Positions 12,972 through 19,247 of a stretch of 41,183 nt of DNA are shown piece after piece (the first letter of the stretch is position 1; each line of letters opens with the position of its first letter). A program made the translations under genes and the position numbers. Source of the stretch: an uncultured Flavobacteriales bacterium (lineage in GTDB: Bacteria > Bacteroidota > Bacteroidia > Flavobacteriales > BACL11). Where the stretch lies: contig CASIBH010000019.1 of NCBI GenBank assembly GCA_949372805.1, forward strand, positions 1 through 41,183, written 5' to 3'. The notes below the pieces were generated by a model. That model did not search any database. It worked only from the letters and a program-made list of their open reading frames with translations, and had not been told where the DNA came from.

Positions 12972-13050
12972 AGAAAGATTTTTGTAAATAAAAAAATGAT
13001 TTTAGGCCTGATTTAAATTATATTATTATATAATATATATATTTAATCTA

Positions 13051-13063
13051 TGACATATTGTCA
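13051..13063. repeat. Short inverted repeat in the topA-miaB gap
   Basis: TGACA (13051-13055), a 3-base spacer and TGTCA (13059-13063) form a 13-base dyad, placed just upstream of the miaB -7 box where a dimeric regulator or the RNA polymerase would bind. A related half, TGACATATT, recurs before groES at 17176-17184. No known regulator is recognised. Confidence 0.35.
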
Positions 13064-13071
13064 GTTTTTAT

Positions 13072-13079
13072 TACTTTTG
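13072..13079 (+). promoter_or_regulatory. -7 promoter box for the miaB operon
   Basis: TACTTTTG is an exact TAnnTTTG match, 16 bases before the miaB ATG at 13096. The -33 half is not obvious. The predicted leader is only about 10-13 bases long. Confidence 0.5.
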
Positions 13080-13095
13080 GACTTTTAAATTGAAT

Positions 13096-14547
13096 ATGAA
13101 TATTGAAACATTACTAACTAAAAAAATTGATGAGGATAAGCAAGGTAATGTCTTAGAAATTAATAATTCTAAAAAAGGATCAAAAAAACTCTACATAGAA
13201 AGTTATGGCTGTCAAATGAACTTTGCAGACAGTGAAGTTGTTGCATCAATTTTATTGAAAGAAAATTTTAGTACAACAAAAGATATTACAAAAGCAGATT
13301 TAGTTTTTGTTAATACATGCTCAATTAGAGATAAAGCAGAGCAGACTGTAAGAAAAAGATTAGAACTTTATAATTCAATTAAAAAAACATCAAACCCATC
13401 AATGATTGTGGGAGTACTAGGCTGTATGGCTGAGCGATTAAAAGAAAAATTTTTAGAAGAAGAAAAATTAGTTGATATTGTTGTGGGACCAGATTCATAC
13501 AGAGATCTTCCCAATTTAATAAAAGAAGCAAATGATGGCAGAAAAGCTGTCAATGTAATTTTATCTAAAGAAGAGACCTATGCAGACATTAGTCCAGTAA
13601 GATTAGGTAGTAATGGGGTCACTGCTTTTGTCTCTATAACAAGAGGTTGTGACAATATGTGTACTTTTTGTGTTGTCCCATACACAAGGGGCAGGGAAAG
13701 AAGCCGAGATCCAGAAAGTATTTTAAATGAATGTAATAATTTATTTAAAGATGGGTATAGAGAAGTAACCCTTCTTGGACAAAATGTTGACTCATATTTA
13801 TGGTATGGAGGCGGTCCAAAAAGAAGCTTTAAAAAGGCAACATTTGAACAAAAAGAAAATGCAGTTAATTTTGCACAACTATTAGAAAAAGTTGCACAAA
13901 TAAATCCAAAATTAAGAATTAGATTTTCAACTTCAAACCCTCAAGACATGATGGATAGTGTAATTGATGTAATTGCAAAATTCAAAAATATTTGCAACTA
14001 CATTCATTTACCGGTTCAGTCAGGAAGCAGTAAAATTTTGGAGAAAATGAATAGAGGATACAACAGGCAAGAGTACATAAACTTGATTGATAAAATTAAA
14101 ACTAAAATCCCTGATTGTACAGTGTCAATGGATATGATAATAGGTTTTTGTGGAGAAACAGAAAAAGATCATTTAGAAACATTAAGCTTGATGGATTATG
14201 TTAAATATGACTATGGTTATATGTTTAAGTATTCTGAACGACCAAATACAGCTGCATCACGAAAATTTAAGGATGATATTAGCGAGGAAGTAAAACAAAG
14301 AAGATTAGTTGAAGTAATAGCCAAACAACAAAAACAATCACTTGAAAATAATAAAAAAAGAATCAATCAAACATATGAAGTTTTAATAGAAGGCACTTCA
14401 AAAAAATCTCAATTACACTATTACGGAAGAACAACTCATAACTGCGTGGTAGTTTTTGAAAAGAACATGTTAAATCCTGGCGAATATGTAAAAGTAAAAA
14501 TACATGACTGTACAGCAGGAACATTAAAAGGTAAAGTTGTAAAATAA
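13096..14547 (+). CDS. miaB: tRNA-2-methylthio-N6-dimethylallyladenosine synthase
   Basis: This 483-residue radical-SAM methylthiotransferase adds the methylthio group to i6A37 of tRNAs that read UNN codons. The N-terminal MTTase domain has its three cluster cysteines in YGCQMNFADSE, NTCSIRDKAE and LGCMAERL; the radical-SAM domain has CDNMCTFC (Cys185, Cys189, Cys192), preceded by VSITRG and followed by VVPYTRGRERSR; a TRAM domain closes the protein (about 415-480). An upstream in-frame TTG at 13090 exists, but ATG at 13096 is preferred because the TAnnTTTG box sits close before it. It leads an operon in which the sigma-54 activator starts directly after its stop. Confidence 0.97.
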   Translation: MNIETLLTKKIDEDKQGNVLEINNSKKGSKKLYIESYGCQMNFADSEVVASILLKENFSTTKDITKADLVFVNTCSIRDKAEQTVRKRLELYNSIKKTSNPSMIVGVLGCMAERLKEKFLEEEKLVDIVVGPDSYRDLPNLIKEANDGRKAVNVILSKEETYADISPVRLGSNGVTAFVSITRGCDNMCTFCVVPYTRGRERSRDPESILNECNNLFKDGYREVTLLGQNVDSYLWYGGGPKRSFKKATFEQKENAVNFAQLLEKVAQINPKLRIRFSTSNPQDMMDSVIDVIAKFKNICNYIHLPVQSGSSKILEKMNRGYNRQEYINLIDKIKTKIPDCTVSMDMIIGFCGETEKDHLETLSLMDYVKYDYGYMFKYSERPNTAASRKFKDDISEEVKQRRLVEVIAKQQKQSLENNKKRINQTYEVLIEGTSKKSQLHYYGRTTHNCVVVFEKNMLNPGEYVKVKIHDCTAGTLKGKVVK

Positions 14548-15714
14548 ATGGATATTAAAACTTCAAAACAGAGATTTGGCATCATAGGAAATAATATTTT
14601 GCTAAACAGAGCAGTTAAGGTTGCGCTGCAAGTTGCTAAAACTGATATTTCTGTTCTAATCAGCGGTGAAAGTGGAACTGGAAAGGAAACAATTCCACAG
14701 ATCATTCATCATAATAGTAATAGAAAACACAATAATTTTATTGCTGTTAACTGTGGTGCTATACCAGAAGGAACAATAGATAGTGAGCTTTTTGGGCATG
14801 AAAAAGGAGCTTTCACTGGTGCAAATGAAACAAGAAAAGGATATTTTGAAGCAGCAAATAATGGAACTATATTCCTTGATGAAATTGGTGAGCTTCCACT
14901 CTCATCCCAAGTAAGACTTTTAAGAATTCTTGAAAATGGCGAATATATAAAGGTAGGCTCATCTAAGTCTCAAAAAACAAATGTTAGAATAATTGCCGCT
15001 ACAAATATTAACATGCAGGAAAATGTTAAAAAAGGAAAGTTTAGAGAAGATTTGTATTACAGATTGAATACAATTAGTATCCATCTACCGCCACTTAGAA
15101 AAAGAAAAGATGATATTAATTTATTATTTCGGAAATTCGCAAATGATTTTGCAGAGAAATACAGCACTCCTCCTGTAGAGCTTGAAAAAGATGCTGCAGA
15201 GCTACTTCAAAATTATTATTGGCCGGGAAATGTGAGACAATTAAAGAATTTTGTAGCACAAATTTCAGTTATTGAAAAAGAGAGAAATATTTCATTAGAA
15301 AATCTCAAATCACATTTACCAGAAAACATATCAACAACACCTGCTATTTTTAATGATGAGGAAAAAGCAGATATTTCTGAAAGAGAAATTTTATACAAAG
15401 TTCTCTTTGATATGAAAAAAGACCTTAGGGATCTTAAAAAGATAACATATAATCTGATTAACGATAATCAAAATAATAACTCAAAAGAAAGTACAAAAGA
15501 TATTTTTAATGAAATTAAAGATACAGCTCCAAATGAAGTTATAAAGGAACAAAACATAATAGAAATTGAAGAAAACCTTTCACTTATGCAACAAGAAAAA
15601 AAATTAATTATTAAAGCTTTAAACAAACATAAAGACAGAAGAAAAGATGCAGCAAAAGAGCTTGGCATTTCTGAAAGAACTCTTTATAGAAAAATTAAAG
15701 AGTTTGAAATTTAA
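14548..15714 (+). CDS. Sigma-54-dependent transcriptional activator (AAA+ plus Fis-type HTH)
   Basis: This 388-residue protein activates RpoN promoters by ATP hydrolysis. The AAA+ domain starts near residue 10 and has Walker A GESGTGKE (40-47), the sigma-54 contact loop GAFTGA (87-92), Walker B TIFLDEIGEL and the sensor segment VRIIAATN, then YYRLNTISIHLPPLRKR and NYYWPGNVRQLKN. A polar linker of about 80 residues leads to a C-terminal Fis-type helix-turn-helix, KDAAKELGISERTLYRKIKEFEI. There is no receiver, GAF or PAS domain, so no input domain is visible. Its ATG follows the miaB stop with no gap, and lptE starts 1 base after its own stop. Targets are unknown; a sigma-54-like promoter lies before groES. 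Confidence 0.93.
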   Translation: MDIKTSKQRFGIIGNNILLNRAVKVALQVAKTDISVLISGESGTGKETIPQIIHHNSNRKHNNFIAVNCGAIPEGTIDSELFGHEKGAFTGANETRKGYFEAANNGTIFLDEIGELPLSSQVRLLRILENGEYIKVGSSKSQKTNVRIIAATNINMQENVKKGKFREDLYYRLNTISIHLPPLRKRKDDINLLFRKFANDFAEKYSTPPVELEKDAAELLQNYYWPGNVRQLKNFVAQISVIEKERNISLENLKSHLPENISTTPAIFNDEEKADISEREILYKVLFDMKKDLRDLKKITYNLINDNQNNNSKESTKDIFNEIKDTAPNEVIKEQNIIEIEENLSLMQQEKKLIIKALNKHKDRRKDAAKELGISERTLYRKIKEFEI

Positions 15715-15715
15715 C

Positions 15716-16210
15716 ATGATTAAATCAATTACAATATCATTCTTATTATTATGCAGTTCATGCGGAATTTATTCTTTTAGTGGATCTTCAATTCCTTCTG
15801 AGGCTAAAAGTATATCTATTGATTATTTTGAAAACAATGCTCTTACAAAACAACCTATACTAAGCCAAATTATTAGCGAGAAATTAAAAGATTTTTTTGT
15901 GCAAAGAACAAATCTTCAATTAGAAAATCAAGATGGAGATTTACACTTTAGCGGAGAGATAACTAAATACGAGATTAAGCCCATGTCAATTAATTCAAAT
16001 GAAACCGCCGGGCAAAATAGACTAACAATTTCTATCAAAGTTAAATACAGTAATCGCTTTCAATCTGAAAATAATTTTGATCAAACTTTTAGCAGATATA
16101 AAGATTTTGACAGTAACTTAAATTTAAATGTTATTGAGGAAGAATTAATAGACGAGATAAGCAAACAGCTAATTGATGATGTTTTTAATAAATCCGTCGT
16201 AAATTGGTAA
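15716..16210 (+). CDS. lptE: LPS-assembly lipoprotein LptE
   Basis: This 164-residue outer-membrane lipoprotein should plug and assist LptD in inserting LPS into the outer leaflet. I chose ATG at 15716, one base after the preceding stop, because it gives a lipoprotein signal MIKSITISFLLLCSSC with Cys16; the longer TTG-started frame would overlap the activator gene and bury the signal. The mature part GIYSFSGSSIPSEAKSISI, the central DLHFSGEITKYEIKP and RLTISIKVKYSN match the LptE pattern seen in Bacteroidetes (alpha/beta fold with a repeated strand). Its end overlaps the start of the next gene by 7 bases, indicating translational coupling. Confidence 0.87.
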   Translation: MIKSITISFLLLCSSCGIYSFSGSSIPSEAKSISIDYFENNALTKQPILSQIISEKLKDFFVQRTNLQLENQDGDLHFSGEITKYEIKPMSINSNETAGQNRLTISIKVKYSNRFQSENNFDQTFSRYKDFDSNLNLNVIEEELIDEISKQLIDDVFNKSVVNW

Positions 16211-16848
16211 GAAATAATACAATAGAAAATGCATTATTGAATGTGAGTTCAATTGATGAAAATATGGTAACTAATTTAAATCAAATTATAAAAAAATACC
16301 CTTATTTTTCATCAGCACATATTCTTCTAAGCAAAGGATTAAAAAATATTGATAGTATACGATTTAATCATAAAATCAAAATTGCCGCAGCATATTCAGA
16401 AAATAGAAAAGTTTTATTTGATATAATTTCTAATAATAATTTTACTATTGAAAAAGTAGAACCACTACAAACTAAATCCAATATAGAAGTACTTAATTTT
16501 TCAGAAAATGAGATGCATTCTTTTTCAGAATGGTTAGCAATTACTAAAGTATCTAAGATAAAAAGATTAAAAGTTGACGAAAAAGAATTAATAGATAATT
16601 TTATTGATCTCAAACCGAGTATTAAAATAAATAAAGACAAAAAATTCTTTAAACCAACAGAAAATGCTAAGAAAAGTTTAGAAGAAAACACAGAAATTGT
16701 TACTGAAACTTTGGCTAAAGTTTATCTAGTACAAGGACATTTTGAAAAAGCAATTTATGCATATGAAAAATTAAAATTGAAATTTCCACAAAAAAGTGGT
16801 TTCTTTGCAGAACAAATTAAAATAATTTTAGAAATAAAAAATAAATAA
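16204..16848 (+). CDS. Flavobacterial TPR-like protein between lptE and secG
   Basis: This 214-residue protein of unknown function is recognised from its block KYPYFSSAHILLSKGLKN followed by AAAYSENRKVLFDII, which I recall in flavobacterial proteins at this position, and from a C-terminal TPR-like unit (LAKVYLVQGHFEKAIYAYEKLKLKFP). The middle (about 75-155) is Lys-rich and weakly conserved in look. No signal peptide or membrane segment is seen, so it is probably cytoplasmic. The start is taken as TTG at 16204, overlapping the lptE stop; the next in-frame ATG (16264) would remove the first 20 residues. secG starts 1 base after its stop. A role in envelope or Sec function is suggested only by position. 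Confidence 0.7.
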   Translation: MVRNNTIENALLNVSSIDENMVTNLNQIIKKYPYFSSAHILLSKGLKNIDSIRFNHKIKIAAAYSENRKVLFDIISNNNFTIEKVEPLQTKSNIEVLNFSENEMHSFSEWLAITKVSKIKRLKVDEKELIDNFIDLKPSIKINKDKKFFKPTENAKKSLEENTEIVTETLAKVYLVQGHFEKAIYAYEKLKLKFPQKSGFFAEQIKIILEIKNK

Positions 16849-16849
16849 C

Positions 16850-17164
16850 ATGTATACTATTTTTGCAATACTAATCATAATCACTTCTATCCTTTTAGTT
16901 CTTGTAGTATTAGTTCAAAACCCTAAAGGTGGAGGACTATCATCTTCTTTTGGTGGCAGTGGAAATCAAATTATGGGAGCAAAAAAAACTACAGATTTTC
17001 TTGAAAAAGCAACTTGGACTCTTGCGATAACTTTAATTTCATTAAGTTTATTATCAAACTTTTCTATACCTAGAAATAGTTCAGAGGATTTACAAGAAAT
17101 TAAAGCACAAGAACAAATTGATGAAGTAGTTATTCCAAACCTACCATCAAATCCAGTTGAATAG
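16850..17164 (+). CDS. secG: Preprotein translocase subunit SecG
   Basis: This 104-residue inner-membrane protein has the SecG plan of two hydrophobic helices (about residues 2-21 and 53-72) joined by the conserved loop VQNPKGGGLSSSFGGSGNQI. SecG assists SecYEG and SecA during export. The acidic tail after the second helix is longer than in E. coli SecG but common in Bacteroidetes. ATG start, 1 base after the TPR-like gene; it is the last gene of the miaB operon. 89 bases separate it from groES, and that gap holds a separate promoter candidate rather than a clear terminator. Confidence 0.95.
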   Translation: MYTIFAILIIITSILLVLVVLVQNPKGGGLSSSFGGSGNQIMGAKKTTDFLEKATWTLAITLISLSLLSNFSIPRNSSEDLQEIKAQEQIDEVVIPNLPSNPVE

Positions 17165-17200
17165 AAAAAAACTCATGACATATTAACATAAAAAAGTTTG

Positions 17201-17216
17201 TGGCATAATTTATGCA
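17201..17216 (+). promoter_or_regulatory. Sigma-54-like (-24/-12) promoter element before groES
   Basis: TGGCATAATTTATGCA contains GG (17202-17203) and GC (17214-17215) separated by exactly 10 bases, with TGGCA and TGCA contexts as in the RpoN consensus TGGCAC-N5-TTGCA. Transcription would begin near 17227, about 27 bases before the groES ATG. The same bases form an imperfect inverted repeat (TGTGGCATAA / TTTATGCACA), so a dimeric repressor site is an alternative. No CIRCE element is present. A degenerate vegetative promoter (TTTG 17197-17200, N18, TTCCTTTA) also overlaps. Confidence 0.5.
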
Positions 17217-17253
17217 CATTCCTTTAATAGTTAACAATTAAAATTCAAAATAT

Positions 17254-19186
<1,933 letters not shown>

Positions 19187-19202
19187 TTTTTTTCTATAAC
19201 TT

Positions 19203-19233
19203 AAAAAAGCCTGCTGATAGCAGGCTTTTTTTT
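19203..19233. terminator. Bidirectional terminator between groEL and ftsZ
   Basis: AGCCTGCT (19208-19215), loop GAT and AGCAGGCT (19219-19226) form a GC-rich stem, flanked by A6 on the left and T8 on the right that extend the pairing. It can end the groESL transcript on plus and the dcw transcript (ftsZ stop at 19248) on minus. Confidence 0.93.
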
Positions 19234-19247
19234 GAATTAAATTATTT

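Follow-up and report, generated by a model that had tools for sequence, protein, structure and literature searches.

The groESL operon of this uncultured Flavobacteriales bacterium raises the question of which sigma factor transcribes it and which regulator would control that step. Within the window (the whole stretch of 41,183 nucleotides that was analysed), groES (Cpn10; 17254-17535, + strand; PF00166, 1.8e-33) and groEL (Cpn60; 17552-19186, +; PF00118, 2.2e-81) lie downstream of secG (16850-17164, +; PF03840, 3.2e-21), and the gap between secG and groES contains the intergenic element TGGCATAATTTATGCA at 17201-17216 on the + strand. A sequence-only reading of this DNA had proposed a sigma-54 promoter here, with GG and GC exactly 10 bases apart. 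This spacing was found as described (GG at 17202-17203, GC at 17214-17215), and the element agrees with the GG-N10-GC pattern of sigma-54 promoters, being TGGCAY-N5-TTGC-like. When the start point is taken about 12 nt beyond the C of the -12 box, the usual spacing to +1, transcription is predicted to begin at 17227 (+); the groES ATG (17254) follows approximately 27 nt later, the distance already given by the earlier reading. Directly 3' of groEL, at 19200-19236, a hairpin (AAGCCTGCTGATAGCAGGCTT) followed by a T run is likely to be the intrinsic terminator of the operon.

The bare motif is not rare in 41 kb: allowing one mismatch, 20 matches were observed in the window against 16 expected. For the tighter pattern TGGCAYNNNNTNTG, 13 copies were counted in the 1.17-Mb assembly, of which the one before groES is the only intergenic copy; at this density, about 0.0005 chance copies are expected per 89-bp gap. 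Despite the frequency of the bare motif, a chance match at groES was ruled out because the element is conserved in relatives. A perfect dyad within the element, GCATAA-T-TTATGC, was considered as an operator; it is not conserved in relatives and was taken as a coincidence. Judged from the sequence, its conservation and a counterpart in F. psychrophilum whose transcription start has been mapped, the element is with high probability a genuine and functional sigma-54 promoter.

This conservation was established on 137 groES upstream regions from Flavobacteriales, a few of which represent the same genome taken from two collections. A TGGYA sequence was present 38-85 bp before the groES ATG in 131 of them; among the remaining six, one (L081) has TGGYA further out, one (L143) is masked by N and four are without it. 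A TGGYA-type -24/-12 element thus precedes groES in 132/136 readable regions and in all 16 families sampled, which supports the sigma-54 reading of the locus; the sequences are related and these counts are not independent. Since the alignment was anchored on the TGGYA (TGGCA) box, the columns downstream of it provide independent evidence: they read Y-A-N-T-T-T-N-T-G, with an invariant G at -12. The comparison of related upstream regions suggested by the earlier reading therefore showed that the order as a whole keeps the GG and the G at -12. The next base, the C of the GC pair, varies more and is often replaced in Flavobacteriaceae, giving GA or GT.

In the family of the window, the site was present in 30 of the 34 genomes with a readable groES; no groES sigma-54 site was found in G001 and G002, which belong to the same genus as the window, or in G013 and G036. 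Both G001 and G002 retain groESL and the activator gene described below, and rpoN is intact in G002. In G001 (L008/L284), the groES site is altered by point changes (TAGTATATTTCATACA) and the TGACA upstream of it is kept; nothing recognisable is left at this position in G002 (L010/L285). As these are the closest sequenced congeners, the sequence comparison indicates that the groES sigma-54 site is not indispensable.

The sigma factor itself is encoded almost throughout the group. rpoN was detected in 53 of the 60 genomes searched and in all 33 relatives that are at least 90% complete; it was not found in the assembly to which the window belongs, which is 64% complete. In G001 and G002, rpoN has asnS as its neighbour, and asnS is likewise missing from this assembly, so that an assembly gap is likelier than a true absence of rpoN. 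In a similar manner, rpoN appears frameshifted in G001, where asnS and another nearby gene are broken in the same way, and an assembly error was considered likelier than a loss of sigma-54. Apparent frameshifts interrupt several genes of that region (L180, G001:C9:45000-59000), asnS and rpoN among them; this suggests an error-prone assembly and not the loss of genes.

The sequence-only reading had also drawn attention to a sigma-54 activator gene 2.7 kb upstream on the same strand, and this hint holds up. The gene (14548-15714, +) starts 2.7 kb and ends 1.5 kb from groES, and encodes a 388-aa sigma-54 activator (bEBP) with matches to PF00158 (4.9e-69, 231.8 bits) and PF02954 (2.1e-12, 47 bits). 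The AAA+ domain begins at residue 12 and carries GESGTGKE, FLDEIGELP and GAFTGA; it is followed by a lid, a variable linker and a C-terminal Fis-type HTH, and the Pfam domain scan of the 388 residues revealed no N-terminal sensor domain. These motifs are strongly conserved among the linked orthologues, as is the HTH sequence RK.AA.ELGISERTLYRKIK in 72 sequences, nearly all of them groESL-linked orthologues. The protein is the only strong PF00158 match in its own assembly, and there is at most one such protein per genome throughout the family, which leaves no other activator available. Furthermore, the gene adjoins groES in nearly all genomes of the family that have both on one contig.

The activator is the second gene of the miaB-activator-lptE-secG operon. 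It is preceded by a miaB-like methylthiotransferase gene (13096-14547, +; PF00919, PF04055, PF01938) and followed by an lptE-like gene (15717-16210, +; PF04390, 1.1e-15), an uncharacterised ORF with one weak TPR match (16204-16848, +; PF13174, below its cut-off) and secG. Upstream of miaB, a sigma-A type -7 box, TACTTTTG (TAnnTTTG; 13072-13079, +), adjoins the palindrome discussed below. The same arrangement is seen in relatives, in which the box is commonly TATCTTTG.

A palindrome, CTGACA-N3-TGTCAG, was found in full or in part upstream of the groES -24 box, with on average 9.5 of 12 positions matched against 6.6 in shuffled sequences. In the window, the candidate operator (UAS) before groES, ATGACATATTAACAT (17175-17189, +), is degenerate (8/12): it starts 26 bp before the TGG of the -24 box, its first half is intact and its second half is degraded. 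A second candidate copy, ATGACATATTGTCAG (13050-13064, +; 11/12), is located upstream of the miaB-activator operon at a position conserved in relatives, where it abuts or overlaps the sigma-A promoter of that operon. Among miaB upstream regions, 48/55 score at least 10/12, compared with 1/1650 shuffles, and within 1.01 Mb of groESL loci all 29 palindromes with at least 11/12 directly precede either groES or the miaB-activator operon. In G001 and G002 the palindrome before miaB is kept though the groES site is gone. In G045 the activator gene lies away from both miaB and groES, yet a palindrome still precedes it.

The distances between the palindrome and the TGG cluster at 26, 37, 47 and 57 bp, giving a vector strength of 0.94 at a period of 10.5 bp, a value that is descriptive and not a test, as the 26-bp arrangement of most genomes is shared by descent. 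In most genomes the end of the palindrome is at most about 12 bp from the -24 box, and in the window its centre is at approximately -45. This is unusually near the promoter for a looping activator, and it is the feature that sits least easily with the model.

Other genes of the family carry the same combination. A pattern made of TGACA followed by a -24/-12 element was searched family-wide and the matches, which come from related sequences, were sorted by hand. The non-coding ones precede groES, lon, dnaK, htpG or a small gene (approximately 100 codons) located before lon or htpG. The second half of the operator, which the search did not demand, was present at 22 of the 27 non-groES targets against 2 of the 20 coding matches, a contrast that is indicative, given the relatedness and manual sorting of the matches. 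Under a strict pattern, groES had appeared as the sole sigma-54 target of the window's own genome; this was rejected when a slightly looser pattern detected a sigma-54 site at htpG (L211, G000:C8:50487-50545), whereas the lon and dnaK sites were seen in relatives. Two operator-like copies, CTGACATTTTTTCAT and TTGTCA, are found upstream of this htpG (G000:C8:48500-51500). The small gene encodes a conserved protein of 93-101 aa (L217, L222, L229, L186, L192, L208) and is the first gene after the sigma-54 site, directly before lon in some genera and before htpG in others. No Pfam match was obtained for the two members scanned; it could be an adaptor or a regulator that is co-expressed with these genes.

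The comparison of sequences shows a conserved promoter, an operator, a single activator per genome, a target set in common and, in the symbionts described below, co-loss; from these we infer the binding of the activator to the operator, the opening of the groES promoter, the autorepression and a heat or misfolding signal. The sigma-54 holoenzyme would wait at 17201-17216 as a closed complex. The sensor-less activator would bind CTGACA-N3-TGTCAG a few helical turns upstream, at 17175-17189, and use ATP to open the promoter complex. It would also bind the better-matching copy (13050-13064), where the sigma-A promoter of the miaB-activator-lptE-secG operon lies; there, it would most likely repress its own operon and thus close a feedback loop. 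It would in addition drive lon, dnaK and htpG, which likewise serve proteostasis. We consider this model, taken as a whole, to be very probable.

On these grounds the product of 14548-15714 is most likely the sigma-54 heat-shock regulator of these bacteria. Our guess, by analogy with other heat-shock regulators, is that the signal could reach the sensor-less activator through titration by a chaperone. A wider proposal is about as likely as not, namely that in Flavobacteriales at large the groESL-linked sensor-less activator would be the master regulator of the heat-shock response, through promoter-proximal, helically phased operators and autorepression, and that keeping this chaperonin switch would explain rpoN in insect symbionts of 0.3-0.6 Mb.

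The closeness of the operator to the -24 box, nearer than classical enhancers, would also suit a sigma-54 promoter whose palindrome serves another regulator, for instance a repressor, the neighbouring activator working without it; some sigma-54 activators are indeed able to act without specific DNA binding. This arrangement is rather unlikely, as the palindrome stays with the activator gene even after a change of gene order, marks the activator operon in most relatives and stands in helical register with the -24 box, and as the HTH of the activator is strongly conserved. HrcA with its CIRCE operator and RpoH-type sigma factors are the common schemes of groESL control in other bacteria. Here, they are extremely improbable: a search of the window that tolerated up to 3 mismatches gave no CIRCE inverted repeat, in accordance with the earlier reading, which had seen none, and the sigma factors reported for F. 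psychrophilum are limited to sigma-A, a single sigma-54 and seven of the ECF type (PMC9723704).

The sequence-only reading had itself named a competing promoter, the degenerate TTTG-N18-TTCCTTTA that overlaps the element, from which sigma-A would transcribe groESL, the GG/GC pair being coincidental. Sigma-A of Bacteroidota does use TTTG/TAnnTTTG boxes, and the two congeners that keep groESL without the sigma-54 site imply that another promoter can serve. However, no columns of the TTTG/TAnnTTTG boxes are conserved around the element, whereas those after TGGCA and the -12 G strongly are, and in F. psychrophilum the mapped groES start belongs to a sigma-54 motif (PMC9723704). We thus regard sigma-A transcription from this promoter as very unlikely. 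Transcription by sigma-54 under the neighbouring activator is the preferred reading, and it can be compared with known systems.

The window activator shares its architecture, a sensor-less AAA+ domain plus a Fis-type HTH, with PspF of Escherichia coli, which represses its own sigma-70 promoter. Unlike PspF, it has no psp genes beside it, its neighbours being miaB, lptE, secG and groESL; its inferred targets are cytoplasmic chaperones and proteases, and its operator lies far closer to the -24 box. The groESL3 operon of Bradyrhizobium japonicum is activated by NifA in a nitrogen-fixation context, whereas the operon studied here is the only groESL found and its proposed activator is sensor-less. 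The B. japonicum operon is likewise a set of chaperonin genes with an RpoN-dependent promoter (PMC4842269).

A closer parallel is provided by F. psychrophilum, in which the transcription start map places groESL, lon, dnaK, grpE-dnaJ, htpG, skp and clpB under a sigma-54 motif (PMC9723704). There, groESL, lon, dnaK, grpE-dnaJ and htpG are served by -24/-12 promoters (SM4, cluster B254), as proposed here for groESL, lon, dnaK and htpG in the family of the window, and the promoter of the activator and lptE genes is of another type than sigma-54 (SM5). That 2021 paper predicts three activators and leaves open which of them serves which cluster, and the passages of its main text considered here describe no operator (PMC9723704). 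Here, the shared palindrome and the single-activator family name one candidate. A 2025 survey of sigma-54 regulons found the COGs of GroES/GroEL, DnaK, GrpE and ATP-dependent protease enriched among predicted Flavobacteriia targets; in the passages considered, neither an activator assignment nor an operator was found, unlike here (PMC12316311). The sigma-54 promoter of groESL has therefore already been published for the order and is not new in itself, and its novelty is modest; the parts worth following are the activator assignment and the symbiont pattern. With one candidate protein and one operator for the whole target set, the heat-shock regulator of a large group becomes directly testable.

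The symbiont pattern was observed in the family of G051, represented by 41 genomes, mostly of 0.2-0.6 Mb. rpoN is present in 28 and the activator in 29 of these, with near-perfect co-loss. Among the genomes with groES, the groES site (score of at least 11) was found in 26/28 with rpoN and in 0/11 without it (p=5e-8), the latter being concentrated in few genera, so that they stand for a few independent losses and not for eleven. G069 (L234) and G073 (L246) have kept rpoN and the activator and show no clear groES sigma-54 site. In many symbiont genomes of 0.6 Mb, TGGCAYNNTTTNNG has no match apart from the groES site, and in G051 (344,793 bp) no other non-coding match comes with an operator; the strong palindrome that G051 has at position 256021 is inside a coding sequence and was set aside.

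The retention of rpoN was called unusual in the Walczuchella paper, which tentatively linked it to nitrogen (PMC3971599). Chaperonin expression is a simpler reading of this retention than a nitrogen role. As the only consistently retained site precedes groESL, it offers a candidate answer to why tiny insect symbionts keep rpoN. In the 0.6-Mb symbionts (L236-L260), the half-sites of the operator are swapped in most cases (ATGTCATAATGACAT), a few genomes having the usual order (ATGACATAATGTCAT); because both orders occur, the identity of the middle base in the TGNCA half-site may not matter.
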